36,341 nucleotides of DNA from Pseudomonadales bacterium (GTDB lineage Bacteria; Pseudomonadota; Gammaproteobacteria; Pseudomonadales; JAHRWD01), in assembly GCA_016763075.1 (NCBI GenBank), contig JAESUM010000083.1, positions 1-36,341 of the forward strand. The letters are read 5' to 3'. The translations under genes were made by a program, and so were the position numbers. The notes beneath the pieces were generated by a model. It was not told the origin of the DNA and searched no databases. It saw only the letters and a list, made by a program, of their open reading frames with translations. Of the stretch, positions 12,041 through 36,208 are shown in pieces (positions within the stretch are counted from its first letter, which is position 1; each line of letters starts with the position of its first letter).

Positions 12041-12714
12041 TTATTCACCAAACTGGTACACCGATACTTGGCTGTATTCACCGGTATTGTCCAAATCTGG
12101 ACAAGTGGCCGCTTGCTGTTGAAACAATAATTTTTGAGCAGGCTCATTAAATTCACTGAAACGAGAATCCGCTACTAATCCTGATTAGCTGCTTGCATAA
12201 ACTGAGTCAGTAACGGCAGATTTTTACTGTCGTACAATAAGTCTGCTGCGAAAATTAGATCAAATTGTTGTTCGGCCCACTCAATACTCGTTACCGGTTT
12301 AATCATGCCAGGTTCAACGGCATTGAGTGTTGCGTTTTCTTCTATCGCAATAATTGCATCAAGGTCACAATCACAAGCAAGTACGCTGTTTGCTCCTGCC
12401 ATTGCAGCTGCAATGGCAACCACGCCGGATCCTGCGCCAAAATCGACAACGTGTTTACCCGCCACAACCTGTGGGTTATCCAAAATATAGCGCGCTAATA
12501 CCTGGCCTCCGGCCCAGCATAATGCCCAATAAGGCGGGCTTTCCATCAGTTGTGCAATGTTATTTTGAATGGGCTGGCTATCTGGAGTTTGGCTTGAGAC
12601 TAAGTAGAGCAAGATCTCTGGGCAAAGTGGCAATTGCGTTGCAACCATGGTCTCTCCGGGCATCGAGGCTGCAATGCGCCGACTAAGAAATGGATGCGGA
12701 ACGTCGTTGAACAT
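12041..12714 (-). pseudogene. Class I SAM-dependent methyltransferase (Methyltransf_16/ETFB lysine methyltransferase-like), single frameshift
   Basis: The 179-residue open part (12714 to 12175) has a SAM-binding motif VVDFGAGSGVVAIAAAMAG and motifs PPYWALCWAGGQVLARYI and FDLIFAADLLYD, as in small protein-lysine methyltransferases. It stops early at TAGTAG. In the next frame the expected C terminus continues as VADSRFSEFNEPAQKLLFQQ and PDLDNTGEYSQVSVYQFGE, ending at TAA (12041-12043). One missing T near 12176-12179 (GATTAG for GATTTAG) accounts for it. Restored, the protein would be 224 residues, the normal family length. It is divergent from the Bax-like gene. The substrate is unknown. Confidence 0.85.
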
Positions 12715-25398: not shown

Positions 25399-26523
25399 CT
25401 AGCGCGAAGCTATTGCAGTCACTTTACGTAACTCAACACCGACATATTCAGCGCTTGGCCGAATAATACGGTTGTCAGCACGTTGCTCCATAACATGTGC
25501 AGCCCAACCCACTAGGCGAGAGCATACGAATAATGGTGTGAACAGTTTGGTAGGAATACCCATGAAGTGATAGGTCGATGCGTGGAAGAAATCTGCGTTA
25601 CAAAACAGTTTCTTTTCGCGCCACATGACTTCTTCACAGCGTACAGATACCGGATAAAGAACTGTGTCACCAACGGTTTCTGCAAGCTTTTTGCTCCACT
25701 CTTTGATGATGACATTACGGGGGTCAGATTCGCTGTAAATCGCGTGACCGAAGCCCATAATTTTGTCTTTACGTGCCAGCATACCCATGATTTCAGCTTC
25801 AGCGTGATCCGCATCTTTAAAGCCTTCGATCATATCCATCGCTGCTTCGTTGGCTCCACCGTGTAGTGGGCCTCGTAGCGTACCGATTGCACCGGTGACG
25901 CATGAATGCATATCAGAAAGAGTTGATGCACAAACCCGCGCAGTAAAGGTCGAGGCATTAAATTCGTGCTCGGCATAAAGAATCAGCGATACATCGAGTA
26001 CCCGTGTATGCAGCTCACTGGGCTTTTCGCCGTGCAACATATGCAGAAAGTGGGCGCTTATTTGCTCATCATCGGTTTCGGTTTCGATCCGCACACCATC
26101 GTGCGAAAACTTGTACCAATAGGCTATGATCGATGGAAACAGCGCTAATAATCGATCCGCTGAATCTTGCTGCTGGTCAAAATCAGCTTCGGTTTCAAGG
26201 TTACCGAGCATTGAACAACCTGTGCGCATCACGTCCATCGGGTGTGCATCAGCCGGAATTCGCTCCAGTACTTCTTTAAGAGCATCGGGTAAACCACGAA
26301 GTCCTTTTAGCTTTTTCTTGTAATCATCAAACTGAGACTGATTCGGCAGTTCGCCATTAAAAATCAGGTACGCGGTTTCTTCAAAGGTTGCGTTGTCCGC
26401 AAGATCTTTAACATCATAACCACAGTATGTCAGGCCAGAGCCCGCTGTACCGACGGTAGACAGTGCTGTTTTACCGGCTACCTGGCCACGTAGGCCTGCT
26501 CCACTAAGTGCTTTTTTTGTCAT
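25399..26523 (-). CDS. prpC: 2-methylcitrate synthase
   Basis: Condenses propionyl-CoA with oxaloacetate in the 2-methylcitrate cycle. The 374-residue length fits the short bacterial citrate synthase type. The three catalytic residues are visible as H221 in [15 protein letters not shown]260 in [10 protein letters not shown] and D311 in [17 protein letters not shown]. The N terminus [15 protein letters not shown] and [12 protein letters not shown] match methylcitrate synthases, in contrast to the larger GltA. The start overlaps the prpB stop by four bases (ATGA), so the pair is translationally coupled. Confidence 0.95.
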
Positions 26524-27410
26524 TTTCCTTGCTCCTGAGCAAATAATGCGTCCAATTTGTCTTCGTAATCGTGATAATTCAAGAAATCATATAATTCGTT
26601 TCGAGTCTGCATCGTATCAACAACCGCTTCTTGGCAGCCAGTGTCCATCAATGTTTGATACACGTTTAATGCCGCTTTATTCATAGCTCGTGCAGCGCTT
26701 AATGGGTATAACACCATCGCAACACCGGATTCTGCCAATTCAACTTTATTGAATAATGGTGTTTGACCAAATTCTGTAATATTGGCCAATACTGGTACTT
26801 TAATTATTTTGGTTAACGTCTTGTACTGCTCAAGCTCTGTTAATGCTTCAGGGAAAATTGCATCTGCGCCGGCTTCAACACAAGCAGCCGCTCGGTCAAT
26901 AGCGGAGTTCATTCCTTCAACCGCAAGCGCATCCGTACGAGCCATAATTACAAAGCTGTCGTCTGTACGTGCATCTACTGCTGCTTTAACGCGGTCAACC
27001 ATCTCTTGTTGTGTCACAATCGCTTTATTGGGGCGATGGCCACAACGTTTAGCTGCCACTTGGTCTTCGATATGAACCGCTGCTGCACCGGCCTTGGTCA
27101 TATCTTTAATTGAACGAGCGATGTTGAATGCACTGCCCCAACCGGTATCGATATCAACCAATAACGGCACAGAAGTCGCCCCGGTAATACGACGTACATC
27201 TTCGAGTACATCGTTGAGTGATGTAATACCCAAGTCAGGTAAACCATAGGATGCGTTCGCTACACCAGCACCGGACAAATAAATTGCTTGATGCCCAACC
27301 CGCTCTGCCATTAACGCAGTGTAAGCGTTTATAGTGCCGACTACCTGCAGAGGGTTATTATCGATTAAGGCCTGGCGAAATCGTGCGCCGGCTGTTGGCT
27401 CTGAACTCAT
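26520..27410 (-). CDS. prpB: 2-methylisocitrate lyase
   Basis: Cleaves 2-methylisocitrate to pyruvate and succinate, the last step of propionate oxidation. The 296-residue protein has the metal-binding VDIDTGWG (D86, D88) and the catalytic cysteine C123 in KRCGHRPNK, the KKCGH motif of the PEP mutase/isocitrate lyase superfamily. [19 protein letters not shown] is also typical. It is the first gene of a prpB-prpC pair. No prpR, prpD, acnD or prpF lies in the window, so dehydration of methylcitrate must be encoded elsewhere. An 8-bp inverted repeat lies about 120 bases upstream. Confidence 0.95.
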
Positions 27411-30574: not shown

Positions 30575-31504
30575 CTACAAAAGAGCTTCGAGTGCTGGAA
30601 CCGCTTCAAAAAGATCCGCAACCAGGCCAAAATCAGCAACCTGGAAGATTGGAGCTTCTTCGTCTTTGTTGATAGCAACAATGACTTTACTGTCTTTCAT
30701 ACCCGCCAAATGCTGAATAGCACCGGAGATACCGACCGCAATATACAGGTCTGGAGCAACGATCTTACCGGTTTGCCCTACTTGCATATCGTTAGCAACA
30801 AAACCTGCATCAACCGCAGCACGTGAAGCACCAATAGCAGCGCCTAGCTTGTCAGCTACGCCTTCAAGCAACTTGAAGTTTTCGCCATTTTGCATACCAC
30901 GACCACCAGAAATAACCACTTTAGCAGCGGTCAATTCAGGGCGATCAGATGCGGCAACTTGCTCACTTACAAATACCGAGATTCCTGCGTCAGTAACCAC
31001 GTCTACCGCTTCAATAGCAGCAGAACCGCCTTCAGCTGCAGCGCCATCGAAGCCAGTGCCTCGAACGGTGATAACTTTAACGGCATCCGAAGATTGAACA
31101 GTCGCCATTGCGTTACCGGCATAGATAGGACGAACAAATGTATCCGCACTGACTACAGCAGTGATTTCAGAAATTTGACCCACATCAAGAAGCGCCGCTA
31201 CACGAGGCAGAATGCCTTTGGCGTTTGCCATGGCTGGAGCTAGAATCGCACTGTAATCACTGGCAAGCTCAACGATCAGCGCAGAAGTGTTTTCCGCTAG
31301 CATGTTCGTGTAAGCAGCGTTATCAGCAACCAATACTTTAGCAACGCCAGCTACTTTAGCGGCTTGCTCAGCAACTGCTCCACAACCGGAACCAGCAACC
31401 AAAATAGTAACATCGCCGCCCATTTCAATAGCCGCAGTTACGGTGTTTAAAGTGGCTGATTTCAGCTCACTGTTATCATGTTCAGCTAATACTAATACGC
31501 TCAT
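30575..31504 (-). CDS. etfA: Electron transfer flavoprotein alpha subunit
   Basis: The ETF heterodimer takes electrons from acyl-CoA and other dehydrogenases and passes them to ETF-QO. The 309-residue product has the C-terminal FAD-binding region of Etf[71 protein letters not shown] and [19 protein letters not shown]. Its start shares one base with the etfB stop (TAATG), and a strong terminator follows. The partner ETF-QO is divergently encoded 431 bases upstream of etfB. Confidence 0.97.
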
Positions 31505-32253
31505 TAGATCACCTTCGCTACATTTTTCAGTTTATCAACAAGATCCTCAACGGTTTCAACAATGATACCGGCTGCACGTTCTGCAGGCGGCTCAACCTTA
31601 AGGGTTTTGATATTTGAAGTAACTTCTACTCCAAGATCTGCTGGCGTCAGCACATCCATAGGCTTTTTCTTAGCCTTCATAATGTTAGGCAATGAAGCGT
31701 AACGTGGCTCATTCAAACGCAAGTCAGCAGTAATAACCGCTGGCATGTTCAAAGTAAGCGTTTGCTCACCTGAGTCTGTTTCACGACTAACGGTCAATTT
31801 ATCGCCATCAATAGTGATCTCTGACGCAAATGCACCTTGCGCAAGACCAGCAAGCGCAGCAAACATTTGACCCGTTTGACCGTTGTCTTCATCAATAGAC
31901 TGCTTGCCAAATATAACCAGATCAGCGCTTTCTTTATCGCTAACTGCTTTTAGTAATTTTGCAATAGCAAGAGGCTGAAGCTCATCTTCAGTTTCAACCA
32001 AAATAGCTCGATCAGCACCCAATGCTAGGGCAGTTCGAAGCTGCTCTTGGCAAACTTTTGCACCAGCAGTTACGACGATGACTTCAGTAGCAACGCCTTT
32101 TTCTCTCAGTCGAATAGCTTCTTCAACGGCAATTTCACAAAATGGATTGATCGCCATTTTTACGTTATTCAAATCCACACCGGAGTTATCAGAAGCAACA
32201 CGTACTTGGACGTTTGCATCTACCACTCTTTTTACGGGAACAAGAACCTTCAT
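31504..32253 (-). CDS. etfB: Electron transfer flavoprotein beta subunit
   Basis: The 249-residue subunit binds AMP and docks with acyl-CoA dehydrogenases. Family motifs are visible: [19 protein letters not shown] at the N terminus, [18 protein letters not shown], and the C-terminal part [20 protein letters not shown] with the recognition-loop region. AGAGGA lies a few bases upstream of the ATG at 32253. It is the first gene of the etfBA operon. Confidence 0.97.
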
Positions 32254-32361
32254 AGAGTCCTCTTCATATCAAAGATTGTTCAAAAAAAAGCCCCGGTAGC
32301 AATGTTTGACATAAAGGCATACAGCCCGCTAGTCCGAGACCCACAATTAGCCGCGACATTC

Positions 32362-32385
32362 TGACCTTAAAGGCCTTTAAGGTCA
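32362..32385. promoter_or_regulatory. 24-bp perfect palindrome in the etfB leader, candidate operator
   Basis: The left arm TGACCTTAAAGG (32362-32373) is exactly complementary to the right arm CCTTTAAGGTCA (32374-32385). On the minus strand it overlaps a possible etfB promoter: a TTGACC whose last bases enter the palindrome, 17 bases, then CAGAAT. A repressor bound here would block the promoter. A hairpin in the transcript is the other option. Confidence 0.55.
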
Positions 32386-32476
32386 ATACCGCCAACGACG
32401 CCAACACCGCGGAAGAGTCTATAATCAGCGCACAGGTTGGACCTAAAACCAGCCGAGCCATGCTTGGTTAATCCAA

Positions 32477-32506
32477 TTGGCCATCAAGTTAGGTTTTTTA
32501 TATAAT
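32477..32506 (+). promoter_or_regulatory. Candidate sigma-70 promoter of ETF-QO
   Basis: TTGGCC (32477-32482), an 18-base spacer and a perfect TATAAT (32501-32506). Transcription from here would give a 5' leader of about 170 bases that includes the inverted repeat at 32550-32569. Confidence 0.5.
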
Positions 32507-32549
32507 CACTGACTGATTTTTTGCAAAAACGAAGCATTTTCGCCGGCTT

Positions 32550-32569
32550 GACCTGAGTTCAGTCAGGTC
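32550..32569. promoter_or_regulatory. 7-bp inverted repeat downstream of the ETF-QO promoter
   Basis: GACCTGA (32550-32556) and TCAGGTC (32563-32569) are perfect complements with a six-base spacer. They are about 40 bases past the proposed start of transcription, so this could be an operator or a leader hairpin. Confidence 0.4.
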
Positions 32570-32684
32570 CGATAGCCAGAAAGTACAAAACTAAAGTACA
32601 GCACTTTGTTTTTGCGCCCGCATAACGGCATAACGCCGACATAAAAAAACATAGTTTGGCATAGCCAAATGGAAGAGGAGAGCG

Positions 32685-34340
32685 ATGGTGGAACGGGAAT
32701 CGATGGAATTTGACGTAGTGGTCGTAGGCGGAGGCCCAGCTGGGCTTTCAACGGCTTGTAAAATTCGCCAGCTTGCAAAAGAAGCAGGGGAAGAAATTTC
32801 TGTCTGCCTGGTCGAAAAAGGCTCTGAAATTGGCGCTCACATCTTATCCGGTGCGGTTTTTGAAACCCATGCACTCGATGAGCTCTTTCCTGACTGGAAA
32901 GAAATGGGCGCACCGGTAAAGACTCCCGTCAAACGTGACGTCTTTCATTATATGTTGGGTGGCGAATCCGCCGTTAAAATCCCGAACATGCTCATTCCAA
33001 AACCGATGCACAACGATGACAACTACATTGTCAGCCTTGGTAACGTATGCCGCTGGTTGGGCGAACAAGCTGAAGCACTGGAAGTAGAAATCTTTCCTGG
33101 GTTTGCTGCCTCTGAAGTGCTGTATCACGAAGACGGCAGCGTTAAAGGGATCGCTACCGGCGACATGGGCGTCTCTAAAACTGGCGAACATAAAGGTTCG
33201 TATGTTGCTGGATATGAGCTTCACGCAAAATACACTGTGTTTTCTGAAGGTTGCCGAGGCCACCTTGGCAAGGAAATCATCGAGAAATTCGATTTAGCAA
33301 AAGATGCTGACGATGCGCATTACGGCATCGGTCTTAAAGAAATCTGGAAGATTGATCCTGCTAAACATGAAGAAGGTTTGGTTGTTCACACATTGGGTTG
33401 GCCAATGGATAACCACACCAAAGGCGGCGGATTTTTATACCACGCTGAAAACGGCGAAGTATTCCTTGGGTACATTGTGGCTCTAAACTACACCAACCCA
33501 CATTTAAGCCCATTCGATGAATTCCAACGCTGGAAACAACACCCCAAGATCAAAGCGTATCTTGAAGGTGGTGAGCGCTTAGTTTACGGCGCCCGCGCTA
33601 TGAACAAAGGTGGATATCAAGCGCTACCTAAAATGTCTTTCCCCGGTGGTCTGTTAGCAGGTTGTGAAGCTGGAACGCTTAACACCGCTAAAATCAAAGG
33701 CTCTCACACCGCGATGAAATCAGGCATGTTAGCCGCTGAAACGATTGTTGAAGCCATCCTTGCAGGTACAGAAGGTGGTAAAGATCTAACCGGCATTGAA
33801 GAGAAATTCAAAACCTCTTGGCTACATGACGAGTTATACACTTCTCGTAACTATGGCCCTGCTCTTCATAAGTTCGGCACCTTTTTGGGTGCGGCCTTCG
33901 TATTCGTTGATCAAAATATCTTTGGCGGCAAAATGCCCTTCACCTGGGCTAACAAAGGTATTGATGCTGATTCTCTTAAACCTGCGTCGGAATGTAAGAA
34001 AATTGACTACCCAAAACCAGATGGCGTTATCAGTTTTGATAAACTGTCTTCTGTATTCGTTTCGAACACCAGCCATGAAGAAGATCAGCCGGTTCACTTA
34101 ACCTTGGCTGATGCAGGAATCCCACTGTCGGTTAACTTACCTAAATTTGATGAACCTGCGCAGCGCTTCTGCCCTGCTGGCGTTTATGAAATTGTGGAAG
34201 AAGATGACGGAAGCAAGAGGTTTCAAATCAACGCTCAAAACTGCGTTCACTGTAAAACTTGTGATATTAAAGATCCCTCGCAAAACATCACTTGGGTTGT
34301 ACCCGAGGGCGGCGGCGGGCCAAACTACCCGAATATGTAA
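32685..34340 (+). CDS. Electron transfer flavoprotein-ubiquinone oxidoreductase
   Basis: ETF-QO moves electrons from reduced ETF through FAD and a [4Fe-4S] cluster to ubiquinone at the inner membrane. The 551-residue protein is full length. FAD is bound by VVVGGGPAGLSTA (about residues 12-24), and LVEKGSEIGAHILSGAVF is a family signature. The C-terminal ferredoxin-like cluster cysteines are visible in FCPAGVYEI and in NCVHCKTCDIKDPSQNITWV, followed by PEGGGGPNY. The ATG at 32685 has GAGGAG close upstream, and its N terminus (MVERESMEFD) matches the Pseudomonas type. An intrinsic terminator follows. The etfBA operon is divergent. Confidence 0.97.
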   Translation: MVERESMEFDVVVVGGGPAGLSTACKIRQLAKEAGEEISVCLVEKGSEIGAHILSGAVFETHALDELFPDWKEMGAPVKTPVKRDVFHYMLGGESAVKIPNMLIPKPMHNDDNYIVSLGNVCRWLGEQAEALEVEIFPGFAASEVLYHEDGSVKGIATGDMGVSKTGEHKGSYVAGYELHAKYTVFSEGCRGHLGKEIIEKFDLAKDADDAHYGIGLKEIWKIDPAKHEEGLVVHTLGWPMDNHTKGGGFLYHAENGEVFLGYIVALNYTNPHLSPFDEFQRWKQHPKIKAYLEGGERLVYGARAMNKGGYQALPKMSFPGGLLAGCEAGTLNTAKIKGSHTAMKSGMLAAETIVEAILAGTEGGKDLTGIEEKFKTSWLHDELYTSRNYGPALHKFGTFLGAAFVFVDQNIFGGKMPFTWANKGIDADSLKPASECKKIDYPKPDGVISFDKLSSVFVSNTSHEEDQPVHLTLADAGIPLSVNLPKFDEPAQRFCPAGVYEIVEEDDGSKRFQINAQNCVHCKTCDIKDPSQNITWVVPEGGGGPNYPNM

Positions 34341-34386: not shown

Positions 34387-34564
34387 GCCTAGCGATACGT
34401 CAATATCTTCTTTAATTAGCCACTTGCTAAATCTTGTCAGTGTTAAGTACAATCGAGAAGCGATATTTCACCGAAGCCATCAATTTACATGCTTTCCGTG
34501 AAGACCAGACCACTTAAAAGATAACAATAAAAACAATTATATTTTGATTTTGGGGTACGCAAAT

Positions 34565-36208
34565 ATGGATATGCATTTCGCAACAATGTGGGAACAGGTA
34601 TCGGATACCGTCGGCGACCGAATCGCTTTGATTCACGGCGACAACAAAGTCACATGGAGCGACTTCGAAAGCCGCGCCGCACGAGTCGCCGGATTCCTTA
34701 CCAAACAAGGCCATGGAGTCGACAGCAAAGCCGCAATTTATGCCTACAATAGCAACGAACATATCGAAGCTGAATTTGGTATTTTCAAAGTGCGCGGCGG
34801 CCCCATCAACGTGAATTATCGTTATTTGGCGGATGAACTCGTTTACCTGCTCGATAACTCAGACTCTGAAGTTATTTTCTTTCAAGGTTGTTTTGCAGAG
34901 CGTATTGCAGAAATCAGAGCCAAATTGCCCAACCTAAAAACTCTCATTCAAATCGATGATAACTCTGGCAGCGCACTGCTTGATGGCGCCTTCGATTATG
35001 AAACCATCATTGCTGAATCAGGCCCTATGCCGCGCATCGAACGTAGTGCCGATGACGTGTACATGCTGTACACCGGCGGTACAACCGGAATGCCTAAAGG
35101 CGTGATGTATCACAACGGCGAATTTTGTGGCGGCATGTTAGCGGCATTTGAAGCCCGTGGAATCAGCCCTCCCCCCGCTACCTTGGAAGAAGCTGCACAG
35201 GCAACGTTAAAACTTGCAGCAGCAGATGCATTACCAGTAACCCTATCGGCTTGCCCACTGATGCATGGCACCGGCATGTGGCTCGGCGCATTCATGCCTC
35301 TGGGAATGGGTGGCACCGTTGTAACCATCGACAACTCCAGTTTTAAGGCAGATGAACTGTGGGAAACCGTCGATAAAAACAACGTAACCGACATCATTAT
35401 TGTTGGCGATGCCTTCGGTAACCCAATGTTAGATTCTTTAACTAAGGCGAAAGCTGAAAACCGCGAATACGATATTTCCTCGGTTCAATTCATCTCTTCA
35501 TCTGGCGTTATGTGGACTCAAGAAGTCAAAAAAGGCCTACTTGAATATGGCGATATGATTCTAAGCGATGCGCTTGGCTCAACCGAAGGTGGTATGGCCC
35601 GTAGCATTACTACTCGCGCAAATGCCGAAGGCACTGCAGAATTCGAGCTGATGGAAACTTCAAAAGTATTTGATGAAAACGACAAAGAGGTGGTTCCTGG
35701 TTCTAACGTAACCGGCATGGTTGCCAACGGTGGCCGAGTACCGATTGGATACTACAAAGATCCGGTTAAATCAGCTGCAACCTTTCGTGAAATCGATGGC
35801 CAGCGTTATTCATTCCCCGGCGATTTTGCGACAGTTGCGGCCGATGGCAAAATCAAGTTATTGGGTCGAGGCTCCATGTGTATTAACACCATGGGTGAAA
35901 AAGTATTTCCGGAAGAAGTCGAAGAGGCCATTAAAACCCACCCCGCGATATATGACTGCCTTGTCGCTGGTGTGAAAGACCCAAAGTTTGGCGAGCGAGT
36001 CACTGCGGTGGTTTCAACTCGGCCTGGAATGTCGGCAACTGAGGCTGATGTCGTCGAGCATGTTAAAACTCGACTGGCCGGTTACAAAAAACCCAAAAAC
36101 GTTTTCTTTGTCGAAGTGGTTCAACGCGCCACTAACGGTAAAGCCGACTATAAATGGGCCAAAGCTAAAGCAGCTGAAGAAGCCATAAAAGTTGGTGTTG
36201 GCGCGTAA
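34565..36208 (+). CDS. Acyl-CoA synthetase (ANL superfamily AMP-forming ligase)
   Basis: Activates a carboxylic acid to its acyl-CoA through an acyl-adenylate. The preferred ATG at 34565 gives 547 residues, with GGGG nine bases upstream; a TTG at 34544 would add seven. The ATP-binding loop is YTGGTTGMPKGV at about 169-180, the A5-type motif is SDALGSTEGG, and the hinge-side motif is YSFPGDFATVAADGKIKLLG with RGSMCINTMGEKVFPEEVEEA. The C-terminal catalytic lysine lies in RATNGKADYKW. It resembles long-chain or steroid-type FadD enzymes, but the substrate cannot be read. Beside ETF-QO, it fits a fatty acid or ring-acid oxidation role. Confidence 0.9.
   Translation: MDMHFATMWEQVSDTVGDRIALIHGDNKVTWSDFESRAARVAGFLTKQGHGVDSKAAIYAYNSNEHIEAEFGIFKVRGGPINVNYRYLADELVYLLDNSDSEVIFFQGCFAERIAEIRAKLPNLKTLIQIDDNSGSALLDGAFDYETIIAESGPMPRIERSADDVYMLYTGGTTGMPKGVMYHNGEFCGGMLAAFEARGISPPPATLEEAAQATLKLAAADALPVTLSACPLMHGTGMWLGAFMPLGMGGTVVTIDNSSFKADELWETVDKNNVTDIIIVGDAFGNPMLDSLTKAKAENREYDISSVQFISSSGVMWTQEVKKGLLEYGDMILSDALGSTEGGMARSITTRANAEGTAEFELMETSKVFDENDKEVVPGSNVTGMVANGGRVPIGYYKDPVKSAATFREIDGQRYSFPGDFATVAADGKIKLLGRGSMCINTMGEKVFPEEVEEAIKTHPAIYDCLVAGVKDPKFGERVTAVVSTRPGMSATEADVVEHVKTRLAGYKKPKNVFFVEVVQRATNGKADYKWAKAKAAEEAIKVGVGA

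Follow-up and report, generated by a model that had tools for sequence, protein, structure and literature searches.

A perfect palindrome upstream of etfB in a member of the Pseudomonadales probably lies within a conserved core promoter

Results

The etf locus and its palindrome

The stretch of DNA analysed here, 36,341 nucleotides of a Pseudomonadales bacterium (hereafter the window), carries the genes of the electron transfer flavoprotein (ETF). The minus strand encodes the beta subunit, etfB (31504..32253; Pfam PF01012), and the alpha subunit, etfA (30575..31504; PF01012 and PF00766). Divergent from etfB, the gene of ETF-ubiquinone oxidoreductase (ETF-QO; PF05187 and PF21162) occupies 32685..34340 of the plus strand. 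Further genes lie in the vicinity. Downstream of ETF-QO, an AMP-binding enzyme, probably an acyl-CoA synthetase, is encoded at 34544-36208, and near the etf genes is found a member of the PEP-mutase/isocitrate-lyase family, possibly a methylisocitrate lyase (26520-27410), whose neighbour (within 25399-27410) appears citrate synthase-like by eye.

The divergent intergenic region between etfBA (minus) and ETF-QO (plus) contains a perfect palindrome of 24 bp, TGACCTTAAAGGCCTTTAAGGTCA (32362..32385, no strand), with 12-base arms that meet without a spacer, exactly where an earlier note on this DNA had reported it. The next pair outward breaks the symmetry (32361 C, 32386 A). Base composition alone leads one to expect 0.0023 such palindromes in a window and 0.16 in a genome as large as the own one, and to this extent the description of the element as exceptional by chance was justified. 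It does not stand up to comparison with other palindromes. A second perfect one, TGCCATTGCAGCTGCAATGGCA (22 bp, 11-base arms, 12397-12418), is present elsewhere in the window, and in the etf loci of 80 relatives (L002-L081; 434,265 bases) there are four with arms of at least 12 bases, measuring 13 to 15, three of which are terminator-like with A/T runs at their ends. The etfB palindrome is unusual, yet not exceptional. Titles and abstract beginnings of the limited literature searched yielded no etfB palindrome of such kind. TGCCATTGCAGCTGCAATGGCA itself falls within a minus-strand open frame (12175-12714; 179 aa) that is methyltransferase-like by eye.

The palindrome overlaps a putative etfB promoter conserved in the order

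On the minus strand the palindrome overlaps both elements of a predicted etfB promoter, a -35 element TTGACC (32381..32386) and a -10 element CAGAAT (32358..32363), which are 17 bp apart and together match the sigma70 consensus at 9 of 12 positions. The start codon of etfB follows 133 nt after the beginning of the -35 element. A promoter scan of 521 bases returned three promoter-like sites, compared to 0.4 in shuffled sequences. Adjoining the -10 element is a GC-rich discriminator and early leader, GTCGCGGCTAATTGTGGGTCTCGGAC (32332..32357, minus), 25 of whose 26 bases are the same in a congener.

For comparison, upstream regions of etfB were collected from 104 loci, the own locus included. Omission of exact duplicates, of upstream regions shorter than 220 nt and of one locus with a partial match (L105) left 97 rows, which are distinct by exact identity only and not independent, many of them belonging to Halieaceae. 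In 56 of these 97 distinct regions, the own one among them, the core TTGACC-N17-NANNNT (that is, TTGACC-N18-A-N3-T) is present no more than 220 nt from etfB, at positions -84 to -199 relative to the start codon; it is missing in 41. Neither reversed sequences nor reverse complements contained it (0/97 each), and 50 simulations gave a mean of 0.26 and a largest value of 2. Judged by this recurrence, TTGACC-N17-NANNNT is a predicted core promoter that many families of the order share, in agreement with the earlier proposal that the palindrome overlaps a plausible -35/-10 pair of etfB.

When 61 occurrences of TTGACC, from 58 of 100 distinct regions, were aligned on this hexamer, the consensus was gctaTTGACCT-N13-G[G/T]CAAnATA. 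The -35 element is kept as TTGACCT, with the final T in 72% of occurrences, and the -10 element reads CAAnAT in most aligned relatives. Before the -10, the logo has G (80%), G/T (55/34%) and C (88%), and a G+C-rich stretch follows the consensus -10 at positions 30-37 of the relatives' logo. G+C-rich stretches in this place are a feature of promoters under ppGpp control. With sigma70-type promoters (TTGACA-N16..18-TATAAT) the etfB site shares the TTGACC hexamer, the 17-bp spacer, A2 and T6 of the -10 element and a core that recurs at a similar place upstream of the gene, whereas it differs by C at -35 position 6 and at -10 position 1 and by the additional conserved G[GT] preceding the -10. Halopseudomonas laoshanensis possesses two etfB loci (L051, L076), and the TTGACC core is found within 220 nt in L076 only.

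Perfect symmetry is confined to one genome

Concerning the symmetry, the homologous 24-bp interval forms 2-8 of 12 pairs in 55 relatives and 12 of 12 in the own genome alone. Summed over 52 distinct relatives from other genera, the seven inner pairs yield 80 matches, compared to 82.4 (sd 7.0) when the halves are re-dealt, in rows that had been selected for TTGACC and two -10 bases. Thus the inner part is at shuffle level; the outer half-sites are kept in relatives, but coincide with promoter elements. The outer dyad TTGNC-N16-GNCAA has the best centre among 13 tested, the row selection favouring no other centre equally.

In the one congener compared (G001), TTGACCT-N12-AGGTCAGAAT is retained and pairing amounts to 8/12. 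The congener also keeps TTGACCT-N12-AGGTCAGAATG, the -10 element and most of the next 26 bases. Differences between the two are unevenly distributed, with four positions in the arm adjoining the -35 element and one in the other arm; of the four pairs gained relative to the congener, three can be explained by a change confined to the first arm, and one needs both arms. Such arm-biased differences would tend to result if one arm had been copied from the other, two genomes leaving the direction unfixed. Quasi-palindrome template-switch mutation, as described in the accessible parts of PMC7202029 and PMC8604942, resembles the present case in that 8/12 pairs in the congener correspond to 12/12 here with differences mostly in one arm, and departs from it in that polarity is unfixable from two genomes and one gained pair needs both arms. 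Since perfect symmetry is found in one genome only among the relatives compared, the palindrome is unlike a shared regulatory switch.

Searches for further copies and for a regulon

In the own genome (G000; 2.65 Mb, 95% complete) TGACCTTAAAGGCCTTTAAGGTCA is the sole copy of the full site at up to three mismatches. Of 293 genomes of the order, three contain the dyad TTGACCT-N12-AGGTCAA and five the reversed pattern that served as control. Two perfect dyads were rejected as regulon sites, one sitting between two converging open frames (L117) and the other inside an open frame of 796 aa (L118); a further one (L119) has letters identical to those of the Spongiibacter etfB site. Allowing one mismatch, TTGACCT-N12-AGGTCA was found in G000 five times forward and five times reverse at seven places including etfB (control 3 + 2) and in G001 3 + 2 times (control 2 + 4). 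The excess in G000 is largely due to symmetric sites being counted on both strands. Besides etfB, the two genomes have a single one-mismatch site in common. It falls near the start of a coding frame that is the same in both and was not retained; we take the protein to be ketol-acid reductoisomerase-like. The genome-wide search for half-sites near acyl-CoA genes that the earlier note had proposed does not support its operator: half-site dyads are hardly, if at all, more frequent than their controls, and none of the sites inspected lies at oxidation genes.

Searches with the promoter sequence led back to etfB. TTGACC-N15-GKCANNAT has 11 occurrences in 11 genomes (8 for the reversed control), six of the 11 being the etfB promoter. 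A promoter profile, built from 34 hand-picked rows of 54 distinct promoter rows, gave one match per genome with E < 0.01 in 7 of 12 genomes, each at etfB; the other five had no match with E < 0.01, and everything else was at E >= 0.1. As all seven etfB matches were members of the profile, only the absence of other matches is informative, with 150 of 799 first candidates scored in G000 and just 53 bases before etfB in G016. Apart from the plus-strand reading of the palindrome, the next match in G000 (L158, E 0.23) lies partly within a frame of 357 aa, at its 3' end, and was discarded. Between 32254 and 32684 there is no Rfam match even at E up to 1, and the sequence scan detected no terminator-like site at the palindrome. 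Altogether these sequence searches point to nothing convincing as a regulon besides etfB. The suggestion that the palindrome is the operator of a regulator of fatty acid or amino acid oxidation is not supported, as there is no second copy and the inner half is unconserved. Against an operator the note would have counted a lack of other copies before related genes together with a lack of conservation in relatives; other copies are indeed absent, but relatives do keep the outer arms, as part of the promoter.

PsrA-type sites at etfB

In Pseudomonas aeruginosa, PsrA directly represses etfBA and activates ETF-QO, its operator following the pattern G/C-AAAC-N2-4-GTTT-G/C (PMC13104628, accessible part). 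These are the same two transcription units as here, but the operator has another sequence, and no site of this type precedes etfB within 450 nt in either genome of the genus, the own one or the congener. Over all regions, S-AAAC-N2-4-GTTT-S upstream of etfB was found in 8 of 104 (reversed, 0 of 104), none of them from the own genus, so that the palindrome was correctly said not to look like a PsrA site. The eight regions carry CAAAC-N4-GTTT-G/C (L016, L061, L066, L072, L074, L093, L099, L104) and include Alcanivorax, Alloalcanivorax and others. In two Alcanivorax/Alloalcanivorax loci (L066 and L074) two PsrA-type sites each flank the TTGACCT core. As the core and the PsrA-type sites coexist there at separate places, they are distinct elements.

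Genome-wide, CAAAC-N4-GTTTG occurs eight times in G000 (control 7) and eight times in the congener G001 (reversed control 2). The latter count suggests that the genus may have a PsrA-like regulator, without such a site at etfB. Both PMC5343134 and PMC3223726 treat PsrA and LiuR, and PMC5343134 also FadP and LiuQ; within the main text of the two papers, to which this statement is limited, 'etf' is absent.

The ETF-QO promoter and a second dyad

A probable ETF-QO promoter, TTGGCC-18-TATAAT (32477..32506, plus; predicted -10 TATAAT at 32501-32506), forms part of a block that is also conserved in the congener. The second dyad that had been noticed by the ETF-QO promoter does exist, as TGACCT-N10-AGGTCC (32549..32570, no strand) downstream of the predicted -10. 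Its spacing is 10 instead of the 12 of the etfB element, and it is unconserved, being neither kept in the congener nor present, at up to one mismatch, in any other of the 97 regions.

Discussion

We consider it probable that the element is an ordinary, conserved sigma70-type promoter of etfB whose fortuitous symmetry was perfected in one lineage. The palindrome would represent the spacer region of the etfBA core promoter. RNA polymerase with the housekeeping sigma factor would recognise TTGACC and CAGAAT 17 bp apart, and transcription would start within or just past the GC-rich stretch after the -10. Conservation of the outer arms TTGACCT and (A)GGTCAGAAT would follow from their being the -35 element and the bases that lead up to or form the -10, and the inner half would be free sequence that is perfectly self-complementary in this lineage. 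Such symmetry may have arisen by chance substitutions or by copying from arm to arm through quasi-palindrome template switching. Promoter use, start site, sigma factor and origin of the symmetry are all points that we infer. Several observations do not sit easily with this reading. The G, G/T and C before the -10 go beyond what the usual TATAAT/TGn rules account for in full, CAGAAT is a weak match to the -10 consensus, and 41 of the 97 upstream regions are without the core. Moreover, six further perfect dyad pairs are improbable by chance at any one named site.

Alternatively, a dimeric repressor dedicated to etf might bind TTGAC(C) and G(T/G)CAA as outer half-sites separated by two helical turns. 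It would block RNA polymerase at the -35 and -10 elements, the perfect palindrome being a high-affinity version of its operator. In favour of such a protein, the centre of the outer dyad is conserved, and the bases before the -10 are better kept than a sigma70 site demands. Moreover, TGACCT-N12-AGGTCA with up to two mismatches is present in 26 of the 97 upstream regions, the own genus included, compared to one of 97 reversed, with other TGACCT/AGGTCA spacings from 8 to 14 yielding 1 to 4; the congener and Spongiibacter have it without a mismatch. Given the direct control of both transcription units by PsrA in Pseudomonas aeruginosa (PMC13104628, accessible part), regulation at this site is plausible. 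We nevertheless hold the repressor to be unlikely. It would be without a regulon, its site being unique at up to three mismatches and its perfect dyad no more frequent in the 293 genomes than the control; counted on both strands, one-mismatch matches number 10 in G000 (control 5) and 5 in G001 (control 6). The left arm is invariant through row selection and the right arm is often GGCAA, which is not symmetric to it; none of the 41 core-less regions has a TTGCC version, and the inner arms are unconstrained. Doubtful to a somewhat higher degree is the broader proposal that an undescribed etf-dedicated regulator of many Pseudomonadales acts on TTGAC-N16-G[TG]CAA over the -35 and -10 elements in place of the PsrA of Pseudomonas, with the perfect palindrome as its strongest version.

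A known regulator of fatty acid or branched-chain amino acid metabolism might also be considered, the palindrome then being a diverged operator of PsrA, LiuR, FadP or FadR. The role of PsrA at etfBA and ETF-QO in P. aeruginosa (PMC13104628, accessible part), the PsrA-type sites upstream of etfB in 8 of the 104 regions and the surplus of CAAAC-N4-GTTTG in the congener lend themselves to this explanation. It appears highly improbable, since the palindrome is devoid of CAAAC/GTTTG, neither genome of the genus has a PsrA-type site in the 450 nt before etfB, the motif count of G000 hardly differs from its control, and the two Alcanivorax/Alloalcanivorax loci have the TTGACCT core in addition to separate PsrA-type sites. 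We attach just as little probability to the palindrome serving as a DNA or RNA structure (a cruciform or a read-through hairpin) or as the site of a non-metabolic housekeeping DNA-binding protein. Spacer-less 12-base arms could extrude under supercoiling. The palindrome lies between the -35 and -10 elements, however, and therefore outside any transcript from the predicted etfB promoter; nor is it terminator-like or matched in Rfam, it has no second genomic copy, and its perfect symmetry is absent from the congener.

If the etfB promoter is indeed what is conserved, the case illustrates how a conspicuous perfect palindrome can mislead: relatives share the core promoter, and the symmetry is a matter of one lineage. 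The more useful observation would be that the core promoter of etfB is deeply conserved in many families, with bases beyond the sigma70 rules among those kept; it offers a defined target for testing what sets the supply of ETF in marine Pseudomonadales. On the opposite side of the intergenic region, about 50 bp around the ETF-QO promoter (window 32470-32530) are near-identical in the congener, exceeding most intergenic sequence in this respect.
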